Source: Irineochytrium annulatum (taxonomy: Eukaryota > Chytridiomycota > Chytridiomycetes > Chytridiales > Chytridiaceae). From it: 64,000 bases of DNA. Each line of letters starts with the position of its first letter. Position 1 is the first letter of the stretch. The stretch covers positions 123,487 to 187,486 of the forward strand of contig JADGJL010000008.1 in the NCBI GenBank assembly GCA_027600665.1. Reading direction: 5' to 3'. Shown here piece after piece: positions 30,332 to 46,522 of the stretch. The position numbers and the translations under genes are program-made. The notes under the pieces were generated by a model. The model was not told the origin of the DNA. It searched no databases and saw only the letters and a program-made list of their open reading frames with translations.

Positions 30332-32608
30332 TTATCTTTCACTTCGTGCCTGATTAACTTTGGTGATAAGTTCATGAATAATTTCGTCAGGTGAACGTTC
30401 ATTCATCCATTGTTGACCGAACATTTGGAATACTTTGATCATCGGGAAATCTGCCCAGAATCCCACAAACTCCTCATTAAGATATACCTTGTCTGTAACA
30501 TGCTTGTTCATTTCATTCAGACAATGTTCCAATTCCTTTTTCGCTGCCGGATCACACATCCACTCACTGAGCAGACTGAATTTGTGGAAAGTGATTTCTT
30601 CCTTACCAAAGTCACAATGCAAACGTTCCGTAATTCGGAGATCTTTGGACGAGCTGCCAAGTGAAATTTGGAAAAATCCGGTCTCTGCCACCCAACGATT
30701 GTACTTGGTGTTGTAGTATGAAAAGTCTCTCTCTTCCAGTTCAAAAGTAATCTTGCGTTTTTCACCCGGCTCGAGTTCAACTTTAGTGAACGCTTTTAAT
30801 TCTTTCTCTGGACGGGTCCATGTGCACTCTTCATCGTGAACATACAGTTGAACAACTTCTTTCCCCTTGCGCTTGCCGGTATTTTTCAATTGGAAAGACA
30901 CAGTCACACCGGTAAGGGTCTGTGCCACTTCCAGATCCGTATACAAAAACGATGTGTATGACAATCCGTGTCCAAACGGGAATTGAGGTGCCAGTTCTTT
31001 CCGGTCATAATATCGATAACCTACGAAAAGGCCTTCACGATAATACAGCTTGCCGTTCTCTCCGCGAATTCGCATATGTGAGGGGTTGTCCGACAGTTTG
31101 ACAGGGAAGGTCTCAGACAACTTGCCCGATGGATTCGTCTGTCCGAATAATACATCTGCAATCACTTTACCCATGCCTTGACCCGACAACCATGAATGAA
31201 TCACACCAGGAACATGCTGTACCCATGGACGCATTGCCAGTGCGGAGCCGCTGCTCGTCACAACAATGCATTTGGGCTGAACCGCCGCTACCGCGAGAAT
31301 TAATTTTACCTGATGCTCGGGTAGATCAATGCCTTGCAAATCATGCATCTCCGATTCGGCATATTCCGGTTGGCCCACAAACAATACAGCAACATCGGAA
31401 TTCATGGCTAATGAGACGCTTTCTTTAATTAGCTCATCATTGACAGAGTCATCCTCCGGGTACCCTTCTGCATATTTCATGGTCATGGCGTCCCCAGCCA
31501 GATTCTTTATCTCGTCCCATGGAATATCGACTTTTGTAGGTGTTACCTTCGCGCTGCCCGCTCCCTGAATTCTCGGTTTTTTGGCAAATCGTCCGATCAC
31601 GGCAATTGACCCAATGGACTCCTTCCCCAGGGGAAGAATCGAGTTTTCATTTTTCAAAAGCACGATACTCTCGGCCGCCGCTTTACGTGCAAGTGAATGA
31701 TAGTCGGAATCTGGAGATGATTCCAAATCTTTTTTGCCCGTTACCCGCTTAACCAGTTTCAAAATACGACTCACGCTTCGATCCAACTGTTCTACGGACA
31801 GGCTTCCGTTCTGGACCGCTTCAATGATCGCTTTGGCATTGTAATGGGCGGGACCCGGCATCTCCAGATCAAGCCCGGTCTTCAGACCACGTATGCGATC
31901 ATTGACAGCTGTCCAATCGGACAAGACAACACCTTCATATCCCCACTCTTCTCTCAAAATGTCATGCAGCAAATGTTCGTTCTCACTTGTATACGTTCCA
32001 TTCAATAAATTATAGGAACACATGACTGTCCATGGGTCGGATTTCTTAATAATCCGTTCAAAGGCGCTTAGGTAAATTTCGCGAAGCGTCCGCTCATCGA
32101 TTTCCGAACTGGTCACCATTTTCTCGAACTCCTGGTTATTGCCTGCAAAGTGTTTGACAGAAGCACCCACTCCTTCACTTTGGATCCCGTTTATAAACGC
32201 CGCACCAAGTTCCCCCGTCAAGTATGGGTCTTCCGAATAGTATTCGAAGTTTCTTCCACCAAGCGGCGTTCTTTTCATATTTACACCAGGTCCAAGCAGC
32301 AGCTCGACGTCCATCGTTTTCGATTCACGTCCCAGTGCCACACCGACTTCATGCAACAATTCCGTATTCCACGAAGAACCGATGGCTGAACCCGTAGGGT
32401 AACAGGTTGCGGGTACATTTTCCGTTGTAATACCCATTTCTTCATCGCTGTTCGTTTTACGGATGCCGTTTGTCCCATCATACATATGAACTGGCGGAAT
32501 GTTTAACCGCTCGATTCCTTTTGTCATCCACATATTCAATCCTGCGCAGAGTGAAGCTTTCTCTGCCAGAGTCAATGCTGACAATAATTCATTGATTGAT
32601 TTATCCAT
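30332..32608 (-). CDS. GH3 beta-glucosidase
   Basis: 758 residues from the ATG at 32608 (AGAAGGG 8 nt upstream). GH3 N-terminal barrel with KHFAGNNQE and the nucleophile aspartate in VVLSDWTAV (about residue 231); GH3_C domain (~320-510) and a C-terminal fibronectin-III-like domain (~570-640). No signal peptide, so cytoplasmic. Expected to split cellobiose or short beta-gluco-oligosaccharides, though some GH3 members are xylosidases. Second gene of an operon after the PTS permease (19-bp gap). Confidence 0.92.
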   Translation of the reverse strand: MDKSINELLSALTLAEKASLCAGLNMWMTKGIERLNIPPVHMYDGTNGIRKTNSDEEMGITTENVPATCYPTGSAIGSSWNTELLHEVGVALGRESKTMDVELLLGPGVNMKRTPLGGRNFEYYSEDPYLTGELGAAFINGIQSEGVGASVKHFAGNNQEFEKMVTSSEIDERTLREIYLSAFERIIKKSDPWTVMCSYNLLNGTYTSENEHLLHDILREEWGYEGVVLSDWTAVNDRIRGLKTGLDLEMPGPAHYNAKAIIEAVQNGSLSVEQLDRSVSRILKLVKRVTGKKDLESSPDSDYHSLARKAAAESIVLLKNENSILPLGKESIGSIAVIGRFAKKPRIQGAGSAKVTPTKVDIPWDEIKNLAGDAMTMKYAEGYPEDDSVNDELIKESVSLAMNSDVAVLFVGQPEYAESEMHDLQGIDLPEHQVKLILAVAAVQPKCIVVTSSGSALAMRPWVQHVPGVIHSWLSGQGMGKVIADVLFGQTNPSGKLSETFPVKLSDNPSHMRIRGENGKLYYREGLFVGYRYYDRKELAPQFPFGHGLSYTSFLYTDLEVAQTLTGVTVSFQLKNTGKRKGKEVVQLYVHDEECTWTRPEKELKAFTKVELEPGEKRKITFELEERDFSYYNTKYNRWVAETGFFQISLGSSSKDLRITERLHCDFGKEEITFHKFSLLSEWMCDPAAKKELEHCLNEMNKHVTDKVYLNEEFVGFWADFPMIKVFQMFGQQWMNERSPDEIIHELITKVNQARSER

Positions 32609-32627
32609 AGTATTCACCCTTCTGATA

Positions 32628-33860
32628 TTAATTTTCTTCCTGTTCTTTCTTCAGTTCCTGTGCATCATACAGTTTGAAAAACGGAAACCAGACAATAAAT
32701 ACAATCACCAGAACAACTGCTAGCAAGATGAGCCCATTGAATCCGGACATAATGTAGGTGGACAGGCCGATCGGTGTATACCATAGCTGGAAGATCTGGC
32801 TCGGAATTCGAACCCAACCCCAGTCGAGAGCCAAGTATACAATCACCGGTGTGATAAGTGAGTTTATCCACATCGGCACCATGAGTAATGGATTAAAGGC
32901 AATCGGTGCTCCGTACACGACGGGTTCATTGATGTTGAACAAGGATGGGATAATAGTTGCCTTGCCGACAGATTTCAGCTTTTTCGAACGTGCCATTAGG
33001 AACCAAACAACTAACGGCAAGGTCGCTCCCATTCCGCCAATACCCAGCCATCCGGAAAAAAAGGTTTCAAATGTGTTGATATTGACGGGAGCTTGTCCCG
33101 CTGCGACGAGTGCTGCATTTTCTTCAATTGCAGGTATCCAGATGGCGTACCAGATCGGTGTCATAACCCACGGGCTTACGCCAAAGGAATACAGTACTAC
33201 GCCGATAAAGTTGAACAATAAAAATCCGGTTAAACTTTGCCCCACAGCATTGATCGGCTCAAATACGTTCACGATCAGTCCAAAAATATCAAAATGAAGC
33301 TGATATACAAGCACCCATCCTGTTGTTAATACCAGAGCGATCGGGACGAGAAAATCGAACCAATCCATAATGAATTCGGGAAGTGAAGATCCCTTTTTGA
33401 AGAACGAAAATTTGTTGCACAAGATCATTACAAGCGCAACGAATACACCTACTAAGAGTGCTGTAATCATCCCCGAAGGTCCGAATCGTTCAAGAATGAA
33501 CTGAATGGTACCGTCTTCGTTTAGTGTTGGGTTAAGCAGCATGACAAACAGAGATATCCCCGTCATTCCCGCAAGCAACTTAATTTTGTGTCGTTCTCTT
33601 TTTTCCATCACGACATAAGGTGTCAAAAAAGCAATAAACAACCCCAGCAAACCAAAACTGAATGTTGTGATGGGTGTCAGGTCCGGCATTCCCGGAATGA
33701 AATCCTGCAAAATTGAAATCAATGTGATAATTGAACCGATGAAAATCATCGGAATGGCGACCATGATGGCTTCTTGAATCGAAGAAACCCAAATATTGTT
33801 CGTAAACGCCTCCAATCTTGGCGCAAACGAATCTGTCATCCATTTCATGAAACGCTTCAT
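32628..33860 (-). CDS. PTS EIIC permease, lactose/cellobiose family
   Basis: 410 residues, about ten membrane helices. Motifs FNINEPVVYGAPIAFNP and MKRFMKWMTDSFAPRLEAFT are typical of the lactose/cellobiose EIIC (CelB/LicC) family, which moves beta-glucosides while they are phosphorylated by EIIB. No EIIA or EIIB gene is in the window. GGGGGAG precedes the ATG and a candidate cre site lies upstream. Co-transcribed with the GH3 gene, so a beta-glucoside is the probable substrate. Confidence 0.92.
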   Translation of the reverse strand: MKRFMKWMTDSFAPRLEAFTNNIWVSSIQEAIMVAIPMIFIGSIITLISILQDFIPGMPDLTPITTFSFGLLGLFIAFLTPYVVMEKRERHKIKLLAGMTGISLFVMLLNPTLNEDGTIQFILERFGPSGMITALLVGVFVALVMILCNKFSFFKKGSSLPEFIMDWFDFLVPIALVLTTGWVLVYQLHFDIFGLIVNVFEPINAVGQSLTGFLLFNFIGVVLYSFGVSPWVMTPIWYAIWIPAIEENAALVAAGQAPVNINTFETFFSGWLGIGGMGATLPLVVWFLMARSKKLKSVGKATIIPSLFNINEPVVYGAPIAFNPLLMVPMWINSLITPVIVYLALDWGWVRIPSQIFQLWYTPIGLSTYIMSGFNGLILLAVVLVIVFIVWFPFFKLYDAQELKKEQEEN

Positions 33861-33914
33861 CCAAAACTCCCCCTGTCTTCCTCTATGCTGCTACAACCAT
33901 AGTATATCGATTTG

Positions 33915-33928
33915 TGTTAACGCTTTCT
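33915..33928 (-). promoter_or_regulatory. Candidate cre site before the PTS-GH3 operon
   Basis: AGAAAGCGTTAACA on the minus strand, one mismatch from TGAAARCGNTWNCA, 55 bp upstream of the EIIC start. Catabolite repression by CcpA is expected. Confidence 0.6.
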
Positions 33929-34018
33929 TGTTGGAACTTGCCACGTCATGGATCGTTTTTTGCCCAATTCATCGCTACAGTTCTAGCTTGCCAGCCTGCA
34001 AAAGAATTAAACAACAAA

Positions 34019-34050
34019 AAACATCCCTTCAATACTGAAAGGATGTCTTA
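34019..34050 (-). terminator. Terminator after the AraC-GH39 gene
   Basis: ACATCCCTTCA and TGAAAGGATGT pair (one mismatch) with a T-run on the minus strand. Confidence 0.8.
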
Positions 34051-34063
34051 AGAGCACTTTTTT

Positions 34064-36577
34064 CTAATATTGTCTGTCCAAAATGAGTAACATCACGCCA
34101 TGAGGAGGGAGCACCAATTCCTTGCGCCAACAATCAGCCCTTACCATCTCTGTCTCCATCACCGGGCCGCTCCTTCCGTTTAAATAGAGAATTTCTTCTT
34201 CCGTCAAGGAATAGGGTGATCCCATTCGGATCCACTCATCAAATACCGATCCATGCTCCCGGTCCAGTCGATAACTGGTGCATTTATAAGTTCCCTCGAG
34301 ATTACTCAGGGTAAGTTCATAAGCTTTGCTGCCTTTTTCCTCAAATACGTCATAACGGGTTGAGCAGGATAATTCCGACCAGTCTCCACTAGCAAACAGC
34401 CGGTCAACATGCACATAGTGATAGAACAAAAACTGTATGCTTCCATCACTTTTTCGGGTTGCGACATACCCGTCTCCCTTAACCAGTAGCTCATTCCCAA
34501 GCTTTTGCATAAGTTCAAATGCATAATAGCTGGGTTTCTTCAGCCCATCGCGGTTAATCAGGCCAAAACCTCCGTAGAAAGGAGAAGAGGGAACGATACT
34601 TTCTTCGAATACATCGGTAAAGGACCAGAAAGCCATCGCTTTCACGTCACCGAGCGTGTTCATGGTGTGGTACATGACAAACGGAGCCATGAACATGGTA
34701 TCGTGCAGCAAGTTTCGGTCATACAGCGAAAAGTTCCACTCCGTGACATGAAGTTCAACATGAGCGTACGATGACGCATTCATTTTTTGTCGCATAAGCT
34801 CAACACTCTCTTTATAAAAAGCAGGATGCATGATTTGGGTTAAACGATCATCTTCAACTTTGAGCTTGGGATACTCCGAATAGATGTGGAATGAAAAAAA
34901 GTCGAGAGCCACTTCCCGTTTACTGCAATAATCCAAAAAATCCTCAGCCCAGGTATCGTTCCAGAGAGATCCGTAACCCATAGCCGGCCCTCCTACCTTC
35001 AGTTCCGGCAAAATCGATTTGATGGCATGAACGGTCGATTCGTAAAACGCAAAGTATTCTTCCTTGCTTCCTGCCCAACAAACACCAGCCAGATCAGGTT
35101 CGTTCCAGACTTCGAAATACCACTGTCTCACTTCTTCCGCCCCATAACGATTTAAACAATGGCGAACGAACTCGGCAACAAGCGCCTGCCATTTGGCAGG
35201 GACGGATGGTGGGCTGATATTCCCCCTCCACCAAAACAGCGTTTCTTTGGATCTCGCCAGCTGGCTCGGCATAAAGCTTAATTCCACAAATGGCCGAACA
35301 CCCTGATCCAGCAGGAAATCATACAACTTGTCCACATAAGACCAGTTATAGAGGGACATGCCCTGCTCGTTCTCGCTGTACACCATCATCTCGTCATTGA
35401 AGATGCCGTGAAACCGAATATTTTGAAAAGGTATTTTTCCTTTCAGCTCGGAGAACTGCTTTCGCCAATCTTCACGCAAACCTTCAATGGCTCTCCCTGC
35501 CGTCATGGTCATATTCCAATGCTTTTCATAGACAGACGACGTCTGATCCGCACATATTTCAATGCTAGTTTGTTCTGACATATGTGTAGACCGTACAGGG
35601 AGTGTGTCATGATCGGCGTTTACCTTAGCATCCAGATATCGATACAGTGAGCTAATCGCATTTAACGTTTCCATCTCGTAATAATCTCCGCTTGAAGATT
35701 CCTCATACGTTTTGGGCTTGCGGTTCACATTCAACTGATGGGGTTCCGGTGTACGCGAAGATTCGCGATAGGAACCGGGCGTGCAGCCGTACTTTTCCTT
35801 GAAGTATTTGTTAAACAGCTTCACGTTCGCAAATCCGCAATCCAGCGCGATCTCCGAAATATTTTTATCGTTTGCTGCGAGTTGAGCCTGAGCCTTCTCC
35901 AAGCGAATGAGCGTCAAATACTTTTGGAAAGGTATCCCGATTTTGTCGGTAAAGAAGTGGGAGAAATAATGCAGACTTAAATGTTCGGAATCGGCCATAT
36001 CCTGCAGCGTAATCTTCTCATTGTAGTGTAAATCAATATATGTGAGGACTCTGTTCAGTCTTTTATAGTCATAATCCTTGCTGCCGTTTTCCAATGCAAA
36101 ATTTGTTCCACTGGAAAAATACCTCTGCAGGCAGCCGCATAACATCTGTAATCTGCCCATAGTGAAATTTTGATAACCCGGTGTTTTTTTGTTGATCTCC
36201 CATACCATCTGTGCAAGATATTGTTTAATGTTATGCAGCCAGGAAGCATCCTGCTCCACATTCAAGGCAGAGTTACAGGAGATAAACGCATTATTGTTCA
36301 TCAACTCAGGACCGAACTGCAGTGTCAATAACACGTTGTCCTGATTGGTGCGTTCGATCTTATGGACTGACATACTGTTAACCACGATCACATCATCTTC
36401 ATGCAGTGTATATTGCTGCTGGTCCGAATACATGATGATTGAACCATGAAGAACATATACAACTTCCACTTCCTTATGCCAATGAAAATCAATATGCTTC
36501 ACCGAGTTCACGAAGAGTTTCATAGGCAGATCGTCCTGATGTTGAATAAACTCATATAAATAGCGAATTGTCCGCAC
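34064..36577 (-). CDS. AraC regulator fused to a GH39 glycosidase domain
   Basis: 837 residues in one frame. Residues ~15-90 form an AraC cupin sensor (FHWHKEVEVVYVLHGSIIMY); ~170-272 hold two AraC HTH motifs (LQDMADSEHLSLHYFSHFF; ISEIALDCGFANVKLFNKYF); ~330-835 is a full GH39 beta-xylosidase-type domain with FEVWNEPDLAG (acid/base E493) and HVTEWNFS (nucleophile E613). No signal peptide, so cytoplasmic. Probably a sugar-responsive regulator whose glycosidase module binds or hydrolyses the inducer. Starts at GTG with a crowded GGAAG site; the leader is only ~11 nt. Likely controls the PTS-GH3 operon just downstream. Confidence 0.9.
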   Translation of the reverse strand: MRTIRYLYEFIQHQDDLPMKLFVNSVKHIDFHWHKEVEVVYVLHGSIIMYSDQQQYTLHEDDVIVVNSMSVHKIERTNQDNVLLTLQFGPELMNNNAFISCNSALNVEQDASWLHNIKQYLAQMVWEINKKTPGYQNFTMGRLQMLCGCLQRYFSSGTNFALENGSKDYDYKRLNRVLTYIDLHYNEKITLQDMADSEHLSLHYFSHFFTDKIGIPFQKYLTLIRLEKAQAQLAANDKNISEIALDCGFANVKLFNKYFKEKYGCTPGSYRESSRTPEPHQLNVNRKPKTYEESSSGDYYEMETLNAISSLYRYLDAKVNADHDTLPVRSTHMSEQTSIEICADQTSSVYEKHWNMTMTAGRAIEGLREDWRKQFSELKGKIPFQNIRFHGIFNDEMMVYSENEQGMSLYNWSYVDKLYDFLLDQGVRPFVELSFMPSQLARSKETLFWWRGNISPPSVPAKWQALVAEFVRHCLNRYGAEEVRQWYFEVWNEPDLAGVCWAGSKEEYFAFYESTVHAIKSILPELKVGGPAMGYGSLWNDTWAEDFLDYCSKREVALDFFSFHIYSEYPKLKVEDDRLTQIMHPAFYKESVELMRQKMNASSYAHVELHVTEWNFSLYDRNLLHDTMFMAPFVMYHTMNTLGDVKAMAFWSFTDVFEESIVPSSPFYGGFGLINRDGLKKPSYYAFELMQKLGNELLVKGDGYVATRKSDGSIQFLFYHYVHVDRLFASGDWSELSCSTRYDVFEEKGSKAYELTLSNLEGTYKCTSYRLDREHGSVFDEWIRMGSPYSLTEEEILYLNGRSGPVMETEMVRADCWRKELVLPPHGVMLLILDRQY

Positions 36578-42069: not shown

Positions 42070-43008
42070 TTAGCGTTCAAAATGAATCAGATGTGCATCT
42101 TCTCGCAAAGATAACGTGGCATACTCCTTTAGAATGGGAATGTCCCCATTGAACTCAATGGGCAGTACCACATAGCTGGACTGAAAGTAGTCCGATCCGT
42201 TCCAGCGATCCGCAAAGTACAGGTACTCCTCTGATCGCTTCAGCACAAACGCTGGCTGCGTTCGATACGTCGTTTCATCCCCAAAGTCGCTGAGCATTCC
42301 CCATGGGCCATCCATCGTATCAGCTATCGCGAACTTCCCTTGATTGGGTTCCCAACCGGTGCAAAATGAACTCAGCATATAATACTTTCCATTCCGCTTG
42401 AATACGGCTGGCGCCTCCCGATACTCCCCCTGCCACAACGTTTCGACAAGACGTTCCACATTAAGATAATCCTCCTGTAGTCGATAGATATGAAGATCCG
42501 CATTGTCTCTTGCAGCTGAAATGAAATATGCCTTTCCGTCATCGTCCTGAAAGAGTGTGCAGTCACGCGACATATACCCATAGGGATTAAAGCTACCATG
42601 ATAAACAAAATGGCTATCCGGATAATCCGAGGTGGCGATGGCGCATGCGGCATCGTTATAATTATCACCATTCTCATAGTGAACCCAAAGTACGAACTTC
42701 TTGGTCACCGCGTTGAACAGCACTTTAGGTCGTTCGAGATTGACCTTTCCGCCTTTGTCACTCATTAATCTCAGATTCGTCCGAACTCGAATGGATGCCA
42801 CTGGAGTAGATATCGTAATGATATGGCTTCGAAACTCCCAGTTGAATAGATCCTTGGAACGATAACAACTCACATATATATCGTCTCTTCGATCTTCGCC
42901 ATACCAGTAATAATAATCGTCATGGAATAATATATGTCCACCATGGGCGTGGATCGGCTGACCGCTTGAATCATACCAGATGCCACCATTGGTTAATTGA
43001 TTATTCAC
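42070..43008 (-). CDS. Cytoplasmic GH43 glycosidase
   Basis: 312 residues, no signal peptide. Five-bladed propeller features of GH43: IHAHGGHILFHDDYYYWYGE near the start, SRDCTLFQDDDGKAYF and the acid glutamate in EYREAPAVFKRNGKYYML. The usual general-base aspartate is not evident; TYRTQPAFV offers a glutamine instead, as described for exo-beta-1,3-galactanases of subfamily 24. Galactan or arabinogalactan side-chain processing inside the cell is a reasonable guess. Last gene of the second ABC operon, 41 bp after the secreted GH43 gene. Confidence 0.8.
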   Translation of the reverse strand: MNNQLTNGGIWYDSSGQPIHAHGGHILFHDDYYYWYGEDRRDDIYVSCYRSKDLFNWEFRSHIITISTPVASIRVRTNLRLMSDKGGKVNLERPKVLFNAVTKKFVLWVHYENGDNYNDAACAIATSDYPDSHFVYHGSFNPYGYMSRDCTLFQDDDGKAYFISAARDNADLHIYRLQEDYLNVERLVETLWQGEYREAPAVFKRNGKYYMLSSFCTGWEPNQGKFAIADTMDGPWGMLSDFGDETTYRTQPAFVLKRSEEYLYFADRWNGSDYFQSSYVVLPIEFNGDIPILKEYATLSLREDAHLIHFER

Positions 43009-43049
43009 ACCGTTACCTCTCTTCTCTTCTTTTCTTTTAAAAACATCGT

Positions 43050-44765
43050 TTAATTAGTACCCAATCCAAATACCTTCACTTCCCATAACCTTGGGGTATA
43101 CCAGTTGTTAGGGTTATTATGGAGCGTCGCATTTAACATATTAATCCGTACATACCTAGCGGCAGTGTTCGATATAGAATCTGAGGTGAAGCCATAAGAT
43201 GTATTATTAGTTCGATCCAACGCCACGGTCCAGTTTACATTATCCGTGCTGGTTTCTATTTTATATTTGTAAAATCCTTCAGAGCCTTTTTGCATCCACC
43301 AGGAGATTTGTACATTACTCAATGGTTGAACGGAGCCAAGATCGACCTTCCACCAATGTGGCCAGGAACTGCCTGTGCCCACCCATTCGGTTTGATAGTT
43401 GCCGTCATTCGCATAACTTGCAGGGTTCGTTCCGGTAGCCGTTTGCGCTGTTGCCGGTTTACCTTGTGACAGGAGTTTTCCATTTTGGACTGGAACTAGC
43501 GTATCATCGCTTGTGTTGTACAGGACTTGATCAAAATAATCATAAAATGCATAACCATCGGAGAACCACACGGGAAGCAATCGTTCCTCTGTTGTTCCAT
43601 TTTGTGTACCTGCCCAACCGAACATCCAGCGATACGCAACCATAACCACGTTGTCACCCGTGTTTGGCTTCACCCGCATAACGGAACCCGACTGCGCCGA
43701 GAAGGTTGATGTGTTGCCAATGGTCCGTAATTCAGACCAATCTCCGTCTATGCTTGCTGCGGAAGAATACAAAGGAATACTCGGATACCATCCTGCTGCT
43801 TGGGAAGAGAACAAATAATAAATGCCATCCTTTTTGATCATTTTAGGTAGTTCCCTGTGTTGATTTTCATATATAACAGATACTTGATGATCCACATCCA
43901 GCCAATCAGAGGTTAACTTATACAGAATCGTGTCCGAATTATTATTGGCGGTAGAGATCAGATAAGCTGAGTCATCGTCATCTTTGAAAATGGAGATATC
44001 TCTGGATTCGTTCCCTTCCGGCCGAAAGCTTTTGTGAAATGTAAAGTCTTCTCCAGGCGTTGCTGAAGCCACAGATACTCTGGCAAGCGTGTAGTCTGTA
44101 CTGTTTTCATAGTGAGCCCAAAAAACAAATTTGTTCGTAGGCGCATGGTACAGGATGTTAATCCCTTCAAACTTGGAATTCGCCAGATCGGGGTGATCCG
44201 TGTAGGAAAGGACCACTTTGTCGTTACCGTATGTGATATCATCTGTTGACGTCTGTTGAATCATTTCGCCAAAACCGCCTGATGACTTTTGTACAAAGTT
44301 AAACCTATAGTAGGTATCCCCCACTTTAAGTTCATTCGGGAGCATCAGAGTGGATTGCGTTGTGTTATCAAAAGTTGTGAGGTTATCTGGAAGACTGTAA
44401 GGGGTGTATTCTGGCGAGATCGCAGAGGTTAACAAGGAAGTCCCACCGTATGCCTTCACTTGGTATTTATACGTGTTACCCACGTTGAGCTCGTAATCAT
44501 CCGTCGTTATACCTGTTAAGGTCTGTATTAACGTATATGGCGCATTGTTCTCGGATCTGTACAACTCGTATGCAGTCGCCCCCGATACAGGTGCCCAATG
44601 GATTTTGGCATTGGATACGTCAGATTCATTTTTCAACACAAACAGTGTTGCAGCTATCTTGGTCTCTTCACCAGCCGCATGAACGGTTTGTGCTGAGGAC
44701 GTTAAATGAACAGTTAACAACATCAATGCAATGACGACAGCCATCCACGATTTACCTTTGATCAT
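43050..44765 (-). CDS. Secreted GH43 enzyme with Fn3 and F5/8-type C modules
   Basis: 571 residues. Signal peptide (1-31, VHAA), fibronectin-III-like domain (~35-125), GH43 propeller (~130-425; WAHYENS, SRDISIFKDDDDSAYL, HRELPKMIKKDGIYYLF with the acid glutamate; TFSAQSG with glutamine at the possible base position), and a C-terminal discoidin/CBM32 module (~435-571; WWKVDLGSVQPLSNVQISWW). Paralog of the downstream intracellular GH43. Likely releases galactose-type units outside the cell for uptake by the adjacent ABC system. Substrate inferred from subfamily features. Confidence 0.83.
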   Translation of the reverse strand: MIKGKSWMAVVIALMLLTVHLTSSAQTVHAAGEETKIAATLFVLKNESDVSNAKIHWAPVSGATAYELYRSENNAPYTLIQTLTGITTDDYELNVGNTYKYQVKAYGGTSLLTSAISPEYTPYSLPDNLTTFDNTTQSTLMLPNELKVGDTYYRFNFVQKSSGGFGEMIQQTSTDDITYGNDKVVLSYTDHPDLANSKFEGINILYHAPTNKFVFWAHYENSTDYTLARVSVASATPGEDFTFHKSFRPEGNESRDISIFKDDDDSAYLISTANNNSDTILYKLTSDWLDVDHQVSVIYENQHRELPKMIKKDGIYYLFSSQAAGWYPSIPLYSSAASIDGDWSELRTIGNTSTFSAQSGSVMRVKPNTGDNVVMVAYRWMFGWAGTQNGTTEERLLPVWFSDGYAFYDYFDQVLYNTSDDTLVPVQNGKLLSQGKPATAQTATGTNPASYANDGNYQTEWVGTGSSWPHWWKVDLGSVQPLSNVQISWWMQKGSEGFYKYKIETSTDNVNWTVALDRTNNTSYGFTSDSISNTAARYVRINMLNATLHNNPNNWYTPRLWEVKVFGLGTN

Positions 44766-44789
44766 GTCTCATCATCTCCTTTTTTAGGA

Positions 44790-44821
44790 AACCAACCTCC
44801 CTGTTGTTGGAAGGCTGGTTC
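44790..44821 (-). promoter_or_regulatory. Intercistronic hairpin after the solute-binding gene
   Basis: AACCAACCT and AGGCTGGTT pair with one mismatch, without a strong T-run, in the 71-bp gap between the binding-protein and GH43 genes. May act as partial terminator or mRNA-stabilising hairpin that raises binding-protein levels over the enzymes. Confidence 0.45.
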
Positions 44822-44836
44822 AGGTGAAAATTGACT

Positions 44837-46522
44837 TTATTTCAAATTCATCAGTGTCATAACATCCGTCTCGCTGGCTTGGTTGTACCATTCGTTAACT
44901 TCTTCGATAACCGTGTCTCCGCCTTTTTCGTGCCACTGTGTGACAAAGGTATCAAATGCCTCAAGCGGCTCATTGCCATATATAATTTTGGTGAAAGTTT
45001 CTTGTTCCATGGTGGTCAACTGTTCCCATACATTTTGCATCGTTGGTGTTGGTGGACCATTAAACGCATTGGGCAGCAAAACATCCTTGTTTTCATATGA
45101 AATCCGGTATCCGTCCTGGGTCGTTTGGTCCTTTGAAGCGCTTTGAATGAGGACGCCCGTGTCGGCTTTAACACCATTCGCCAGATCATAGTACGATTGG
45201 CCGGGACCATCAACACTCGGTGTGTTTTTGGTGAATGCCATCTTCCCAACGCCTTGTATAGCCTCTAATGGCTTATTAAATTTCGTTGGATCAAAAGTCA
45301 CTTCTTCGTTGACGATATCGTAATCGTATCCCTGAGCGTAGCCGTATTTGAAATCTCCCGTGCTGAACGCTGCGTCGTACATTTTGTCGTAGTATAGGAA
45401 GAAGGCTTCCATGTTCTGAAAGTCCTTATTAAACATGAACACACCATCGTTCAATTGGGCGGACTGATAGGTCTTATCACCGTTCACGCCTTGAATGGTC
45501 GGATAAGCACTAATTTTTGCACCCTCTACGTTCTTCTCTACGTCCTTCACACTGTCGTAAAGCCAAGGACGACCAATGATGATGCCAGCTTTCCCCTCCG
45601 TAAAATCGGACAGTGCGTCCCAAGCCCCTTGGGTGGCCAATTCTTTGTTCAAGTACCCTTTTGCATACCAATCGCGTAACTTGGCAAGTGCCTCTTTGTT
45701 GCCAGCAGCGACAGATCCATAGGTGAGTTTGCCGTTGTCATTATGCCATTGCCTTGGAAGATGTTTACCCGTGTATGCGCTGAAAATCATGACCGGATCG
45801 CTGACCCAGCCTGTGTTGTAGGAATCTTTACCCGAGAATGTAAAGCCGTATGTGTCTTTCTTGCCGTTCCCATCCGGGTCCTCATTGCTGAACGCAGCGA
45901 TGACTTGCTCAAACTCCTCAATCGTTGTTGGCGCTTTCAAATTCAATTGGTCCAACCAGTCCTGGCGGATCAACATGACTTCGCCTTCCGTCAGATTGGG
46001 CGCGATGGCCATCCCGTACACCTTGCCATCCCTAACCACTGGATTGAAAGTGGTCGGATATTGTTTGTATATTTCTTTAAGCCGGTCAGGCATGTAAGTG
46101 GAGATGTCTTCCGTAATCTCCTTGACCTGCCCCGACTCGATCAGATCATTGACCAGCATGGTATCATAGACAGGCAGAACGTCTGGCAGTTTTTCCGAAC
46201 CCGTCAACGCCAGCCGCAGCTTGGTATTATACTGGGAGGCATCTCCGCCCAGCAGGGTGGTTTGGATCTTGATGCCCAGATTTTGTTCACCCCAACGGGT
46301 CAAGACATTGTCATTCAAGGTCTCCCCATTGATATACTTTCCCGCATTTTCATCCTGCTGTTTGGCGATGGTGATCGTCATTGGCGGATCATATTTTCCG
46401 TCTTTGAGTACCGATGCCGGTGCGGTCTCGGAAGCACTCTCCCCTTTGCTACAGCCAGCCACAAGCATGGCCGACAGTATGACCAGACTTACCGTTTTCC
46501 ACAAATCATTTCTTTTTTTCAT
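44837..46522 (-). CDS. ABC transporter solute-binding lipoprotein, LplA type
   Basis: 561 residues, the same length as the binding protein at 20050-21735 and clearly paralogous (shared GKYDPPMTITIAKQ, DPDGNGKKDTYGFTFSG, EEVNEWYNQA). Lipobox LVAGC. It lies 24 bp after its permease gene, so here the binding protein is in the same operon. Delivers oligosaccharides, probably galactan-derived, to the permeases at 46547-48385. Confidence 0.93.
   Translation of the reverse strand: MKKRNDLWKTVSLVILSAMLVAGCSKGESASETAPASVLKDGKYDPPMTITIAKQQDENAGKYINGETLNDNVLTRWGEQNLGIKIQTTLLGGDASQYNTKLRLALTGSEKLPDVLPVYDTMLVNDLIESGQVKEITEDISTYMPDRLKEIYKQYPTTFNPVVRDGKVYGMAIAPNLTEGEVMLIRQDWLDQLNLKAPTTIEEFEQVIAAFSNEDPDGNGKKDTYGFTFSGKDSYNTGWVSDPVMIFSAYTGKHLPRQWHNDNGKLTYGSVAAGNKEALAKLRDWYAKGYLNKELATQGAWDALSDFTEGKAGIIIGRPWLYDSVKDVEKNVEGAKISAYPTIQGVNGDKTYQSAQLNDGVFMFNKDFQNMEAFFLYYDKMYDAAFSTGDFKYGYAQGYDYDIVNEEVTFDPTKFNKPLEAIQGVGKMAFTKNTPSVDGPGQSYYDLANGVKADTGVLIQSASKDQTTQDGYRISYENKDVLLPNAFNGPPTPTMQNVWEQLTTMEQETFTKIIYGNEPLEAFDTFVTQWHEKGGDTVIEEVNEWYNQASETDVMTLMNLK

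Follow-up and report, generated by a model that had tools for sequence, protein, structure and literature searches.

The minus strand of a 64,000-nucleotide stretch (the window) of contig JADGJL010000008.1, deposited under the chytrid Irineochytrium annulatum (GCA_027600665.1, positions 123,487 to 187,486), harbors a gene that joins an AraC-type transcription regulator and a glycosidase of family GH39 in a single chain. Its open frame is uninterrupted and encodes 837 amino acids, numbered here from a GTG codon. Downstream on the same strand lie genes for an EIIC-type sugar transporter and a GH3 glycosidase, and the gap in front of them contains a conserved candidate operator. All features are collected in Table 1.

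The first-pass annotation of this DNA described a cupin sensor, two AraC helix-turn-helix (HTH) motifs and a full GH39 domain in one frame, which is borne out by the open frame and the Pfam domains. The GH39 part scores 323.1 bits with Glyco_hydro_39 (PF01229, cut-off 26) and spans positions 3-462 of the 472 in the profile. HTH_18 reaches 71.3 bits (cut-off 33.6), and its model covers both HTH motifs, in agreement with the claim of two, though the single-motif model PF00165 matches only the second (residues 235-271). Both predicted catalytic glutamates, E493 and E613, are present as claimed: they align with the corresponding residues (WNEP, TEYN) of solved GH39 β-xylosidases such as 1w91 and 2bs9, with 2bfg reading WNAP at the first position in the same alignment. 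These glutamates are the established catalytic pair of GH39, as set out in part in PMC6887791. The AlphaFold2 model of the fusion has a mean predicted local distance difference test score of 83.9, with low confidence for residues 1-14 and parts of 277-331. Its best Foldseek match is 2bs9 (510 columns, TM score 0.89 on the target), in which the barrel and the accessory domains of the xylosidases are matched, and ranks 1 to 12 are GH39 entries. Geobacillus XynB1 (2bs9) and Thermoanaerobacterium XynB (1px8), both β-xylosidases, thus share the whole fold and the catalytic residues with the GH39 of the window. However, they are enzymes of about 500 residues, whereas here the GH39 forms the C-terminal part of a regulator. 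AraC/XylS regulators with an N-terminal cupin have in common with the fusion the cupin, HTH_18 and direct promoter repeats spaced by roughly two turns of the helix, but not the roughly 500 extra glycosidase residues after the DNA-binding domain.

Table 1. Features of the AraC–GH39 locus in the window.
Feature	Position	Strand	Basis
AraC–GH39 fusion gene, 837 codons in the GTG reading	34064..36577	-	Open frame, domains, homologues
Probable true start ATT, codon 4 of the GTG reading	36566..36568	-	Codons of relatives and distance to ribosome-binding site
AraC-type cupin, residues 30-124, set H32, H34, E38, H72	36206..36490	-	Pfam AraC_binding/Cupin_2
AraC DNA-binding domain HTH_18, residues 194-272	35762..35998	-	Pfam
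Complete GH39 domain, residues 339-810	34148..35563	-	Pfam, alignment, fold match
E493 (WNEP), acid/base glutamate by homology	35099..35101	-	Alignment
E613 (TEWN), nucleophile glutamate by homology	34739..34741	-	Alignment
Intrinsic terminator directly after the fusion gene	34018..34049	-	Scan; similar stem and T-run in 12 aligned genomes by eye
Direct repeat, distal copy, candidate AraC half-site	33956..33964	-	12-genome alignment, repeat/matrix analysis
Direct repeat, proximal copy, 22 bp on	33934..33942	-	12-genome alignment, repeat/matrix analysis
cre-like (CcpA) site	33915..33928	-	Block conserved in 12-genome alignment
TATACT, candidate -10 box of the EIIC–GH3 operon; no recognisable -35	33901..33906	-	Alignment
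Orphan EIIC, lactose/cellobiose type	32628..33860	-	Pfam, NCBIfam, EIIA/EIIB searches
GH3 glycosidase; nearest solved relative named thermostable beta-glucosidase B	30332..32617	-	Pfam, NCBIfam, structure-sequence match

The fusion is widespread. Of 7994 candidates scored in a protein search, 2876 matched with an E value of at most 0.001. Among the matches listed, 119 of 120 homologues carry both the AraC HTH and the GH39 Pfam domains, and only P0091 does not; 119 of the 120 retain E493, and all retain E613. Paenibacillus, Bacillus and Clostridia all have proteins with this architecture, which confirms its presence in related genomes, on which the first-pass reading depended. A sequencing error joining two genes is ruled out by the same frame in many independent genomes. 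The fusion is split over two frames in L007, L019 and L142, as is the EIIC gene in L002, through either sequencing error or decay.

Counts in genome samples refer to genes with at least 80 bits against the family hidden Markov model (HMM), leaving the weaker L108, L109, L115, L152, L154-L156, L160, L161 and L163 uncounted. In Bacilli (250 genomes, the class of G003, Lederbergia galactosidilytica), 19 genomes have a GH39 above cut-off; 15 clear genes are AraC-fused and 4 are not, the weak above-cut-off matches L108 and L109 being excluded. G003, the centre of this sample, and G001 were known beforehand to carry the fusion. In Clostridia, 94 of 341 genomes have a GH39 above cut-off, and most genes fetched there stand alone. 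Their loci came from this search of the 341 genomes and from 37 chosen regions, with most matches under 100 bits left out; short forms were chosen for matching the C-terminal half only, and the fetched region L181 gave no match. The genome scan for fusion loci comprises the best 80, of which 34 hold a fused gene, and its patterns include FEVWNEP, which favors an intact E493 but not E613. At the clostridial loci L129 and L134, an AraC gene adjoins a stand-alone GH39 gene as an unfused version of the pair.

The state of the catalytic site separates the window's clade from other parts of the family. Because the GH39 of the window keeps 58 of the 59 positions that are near-invariant in stand-alone GH39s (the sole change is F500C), it is probably an active enzyme, and both glutamates are found in 62 of 62 nearest homologues. 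The alignment comprises 220 GH39 rows, 174 fused and 46 stand-alone (167 and 44 distinct), including the truncated P0091 among the latter. All 46 stand-alone rows have both glutamates; fused rows keep E493 in 163 and E613 in 165 of the 174. On a tree of 78 rows, built by a quick method and with some long branches, at least four changes of catalytic state occur, and all changed rows are fused. They fall into an AryK-like group, L080 with L112 and L113, P0072, and the group of L024, L031, L032 and L034. Among the genes of the genome samples, at least one glutamate is missing in 13 of 33 fused genes (3/15 in Bacilli, 10/18 in Clostridia) and in none of 61 clear stand-alone genes, L191 (nucleophile column unclear) and L201 (split frame) set apart. 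The stand-alone count omits L114, which duplicates L107, and L172_559, which belongs to a fused gene; L112 is scored as lacking E493 from the alignment used, a separate hmmalign run having counted it intact. Related genes in these counts are not independent cases.

The last group on the tree carries E613R, and its rewritten site is common to Paenibacillus and Halanaerobium members. Herein, L024 and L034 precede GH3 and MFS_2 genes (in L034, the second gene is assigned by cluster alone), and L031 and L032 precede MFS_2, GH2 and GH3 genes (L032 by cluster only). In eight clostridial AraC proteins of 662-761 amino acids (L173-L180), the GH39 is shortened and lacks the NEP region; judged by sequence, such short forms are catalytically dead. 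The earlier argument that two retained glutamates speak against a mere structural fossil thus holds in the window's clade. It fails elsewhere, with AryK-like, short clostridial and E613R forms persisting without them. As far as sequence comparison goes, catalysis is not required for an AraC–GH39 regulator to persist.

By profile and fold, the staphylococcal regulator AryK is an AraC protein with a decayed GH39. It resembles the fusion in having an AraC part followed by a GH39-derived domain and differs in the loss of the catalytic residues and of the cupin set H32, H34, E38 and H72 (HHEH). The protein of the window scores 159.6 bits with the AryK model NF047455 (residues 24-434), below the curated 850, and is a relative but not a member. 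Precomputed Pfam domains of AryK proteins show the HTH only. The available text of PMC3922988 describes effects of AryK on toxin expression and central metabolism. A 2020 paper states, in the part available, that Staphylococcus aureus AraC regulators except HptR have a divergent C-terminal region, seemingly for signal recognition (PMC7241556). Staphylococcal regulators of the Rsp type (L202-L205, L207) align with GH39 at an hhalign score of 75.7, with at most 0.4 in 30 shuffles, and an HMM search of Rsp with the GH39 part gave no match at E 1 or better; a GH39 origin of Rsp is only suggestive.

The genes downstream of the fusion point to sugar uptake and hydrolysis. EIIC scores 100.6 bits with PF02378 and 162.6 bits with TIGR00410, the latter below its cut-off of 236. 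GH3 matches the beta-glucosidase 7ms2, its nearest solved relative, with 755.8 bits; its best NCBIfam model, an alpha-L-arabinopyranosidase, reaches 765 bits, below the cut-off of 1300. Both genes follow the fusion on the same strand in 11 of 11 nearest loci of the genome scan (L002-L012), with the order swapped in L010 and L011. This gene order and the candidate operator uphold the first-pass link of the fusion gene to a GH3 operon directly downstream. Its naming as a phosphotransferase system (PTS) operon is doubtful, since only EIIC is present and the searches for EIIA and EIIB, which covered the lactose/cellobiose types alone (PF02255 and TIGR00853), found neither in nine of ten relative genomes with the locus (G001, G256, G257, G002, G258, G259, G260, G003 and G004) nor in the window's assembly (G000). 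The tenth genome, G261, has EIIA, and its EIIB-like matches are below cut-off; the L007 genome lies outside this set. Among the 34 fused loci, GH3 lies downstream in 22. Other loci carry a different transporter type, namely MFS_2 in 8 of 34 by cluster (five checked with Pfam) and MFS_1 in L022. Such an exchange of EIIC and symporter among loci fits a porter that works without phosphorylation, with which the absent EIIA and EIIB are in line, and the EIIC may be a nonphosphorylating porter. The fusion of L013 precedes an HDOD/EAL protein, unlike a sugar operon.

The gap between fusion and operon was aligned in 12 genomes and shows by eye a terminator, then a conserved block, then TATACT; L010 and L011 are poorly aligned over the last part. 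The nine-base repeat at 22 bp has a mean self-match of 6.0 of 9 over the 12 sequences; in the window alone, the value is 5 of 9. Two further shifts, 32 (5.83) and 29 (4.58), are also prominent, and the 32-bp shift would fit two contacts per monomer. A 45-column matrix built from 11 relatives scores 50.9 at 33920-33964; the next best score in the 64 kb is 6.5. Hence, these direct repeats are a conserved candidate operator. An autoregulatory repeat copy upstream of the fusion gene was considered and is rejected, as the 12-genome alignment shows no conserved block for it and the window has no second strong matrix match. The cre-like site agrees at 13 of 14 positions by eye with the consensus and is weaker in some relatives. 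A scan of the control region called no sigma-70-type promoter, which fits a weak, activator-dependent promoter.

Taken together, these observations moderately favor a reading of the fusion as a local one-component regulator of the EIIC–GH3 operon, in which the GH39 would serve as sugar receptor and, in this clade, would still be catalytic. The AraC–GH39 protein would herein control, probably activate, the operon just downstream, which would take up and hydrolyze a β-glucoside or β-xyloside. The GH39 module would recognize the imported, unphosphorylated sugar. Binding in its pocket, in this clade probably with cleavage, would alter the grip of the AraC domain on the repeats at 33934-33964. These adjoin a promoter without a good -35, to which the cre-like site may add repression by glucose. 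Repeated loss of catalytic residues in fused proteins, in one group with a transporter–GH3 operon still adjacent, makes the receptor role the best fit to the family.

Several observations weigh against this regulator–receptor model. No GH3 follows in 12 of the 34 fused loci, and in 7 of them the stretch covered shows no further gene on the same strand within 500 bases. The catalytically changed L080 precedes an FAD (flavin adenine dinucleotide) enzyme and a histidine kinase. The direct repeats may be bound by a protein other than the fusion. The cupin itself may be the sensor, given that 157 of the 160 fused rows whose GH39 glutamates are intact also have the complete HHEH set. Finally, a pure receptor could do without catalysis, yet the glutamates intact across the clade suggest that it is important.

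One alternative is the self-limiting sensor of the first-pass annotation, in which an active GH39 would bind its inducer, signal and then break the inducer down, the signal ceasing with exhaustion of the sugar. This reading is possible, if tentative. The conservation of both glutamates in all 62 nearest homologues and of 58 of 59 enzyme-typical positions speaks for it, but the GH3 of the operon may already degrade such sugars, and relatives with E613R keep the link to the operon. The GH39 might instead make the inducer by cleaving or transglycosylating the imported sugar, the product then being detected by the chain's own metal-type cupin. We consider this doubtful. The HHEH set is complete in 4 of 15 fused rows with a lost glutamate (L024, L034, L080, P0072) against the 157 of 160 given above, and the cupin and GH39 sites tend to be retained together. 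However, these 15 rows represent about four lineages and 14 genes, L087 and L110 being the same place, so that independent cases are few, and four rows keep HHEH; moreover, similar cupin motifs are common in AraC regulators.

It is unlikely that the GH39 is a working cytoplasmic β-xylosidase or glucosidase merely co-made with the regulator, with the cupin alone as sensor: the intact pocket and the unfused pairs of L129 and L134 agree with such a role, but several lineages lost catalytic residues and yet the fusion persists. A role of the GH39 as scaffold or oligomerization module only is very improbable, since, despite the persistence of dead forms, the catalytic glutamates are conserved beyond fold positions in the window's clade and the E613R group has a new but shared residue set at the site.

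Extended to the family, the receptor model would describe a whole class of AraC regulators that use a captured GH39, running from working enzymes over rewritten pockets to dead domains, with AryK and perhaps Rsp as late members; an enzyme-competent chain could then cleave a sugar, sense the product by its metal-type cupin and activate the gene. This extension is offered tentatively and is more a possibility than an expectation. If true, the signals of AryK and Rsp may be carbohydrates or their remnants. The family would provide a natural series from enzyme to gene-regulatory receptor, in which active-looking and dead forms are directly comparable, and the GH39 link suggests how the C-terminal half of AryK may be built.

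The architecture as such is already in public databases and in one published paper, in the available part of which the AraC portion was removed before alignment and a regulatory role is not discussed. The available text of PMC4730625 and its sequel PMC5457731 describes a protein of 192 amino acids that was assigned to GH39 and is similar to an AraC regulator of Klebsiella; on expression it ended up in inclusion bodies, and no activity was seen. An architecture-directed literature search, with most subscription journals outside its coverage, found no published functional account of an AraC–GH39 regulator. The decay series, the AryK link, the conserved operator and the orphan EIIC appear to be new, the search not having been aimed at EIIC or the operator.

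ATT is a rare start codon. The fusion gene likely starts at the ATT at 36566-36568 and not at the GTG at 36577, because distant homologues have ATG at this codon and several close relatives lack ATG, GTG, TTG and CTG in the 12 codons before it. This is the case for L002 (= L095), L096, L097 and L098, which also have an in-frame stop six codons before the ATT position, and likewise for L003 and L004. Among 20 close relatives (L001, L095, L091 and L094 merged into duplicates), 14 have ATT (12) or ATC (2) and the other six ATG. A ribosome-binding site lies about 6-8 nucleotides upstream of the ATT/ATC start in the window and close relatives, and the GTG directly abuts it. Against the ATT start, a GTG occurs three codons earlier, hard by the ribosome-binding site, in the window and five relatives, and L006, L007 and L101 have other candidate starts upstream. 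Several database versions have 819 amino acids, matching a start at Met19, but relatives with an ATG start conserve the residues ahead of it.

The fusion protein has its nearest homologues in Paenibacillus. The contig is possibly a contaminant, or the assembly mixed; no bacterial small-subunit ribosomal RNA match was found in the assembly (26.9 Mb, 1082 contigs). Family member P0022 is publicly labeled "transposon Tn10 TetD protein [Actinobacillus pleuropneumoniae]" and is probably a mislabeled contaminant. Elsewhere on the minus strand of the window, at 42070-46522, two genes that look glycosidase-like and a probable solute-binding lipoprotein gene lie in a row and are maybe a second sugar locus.
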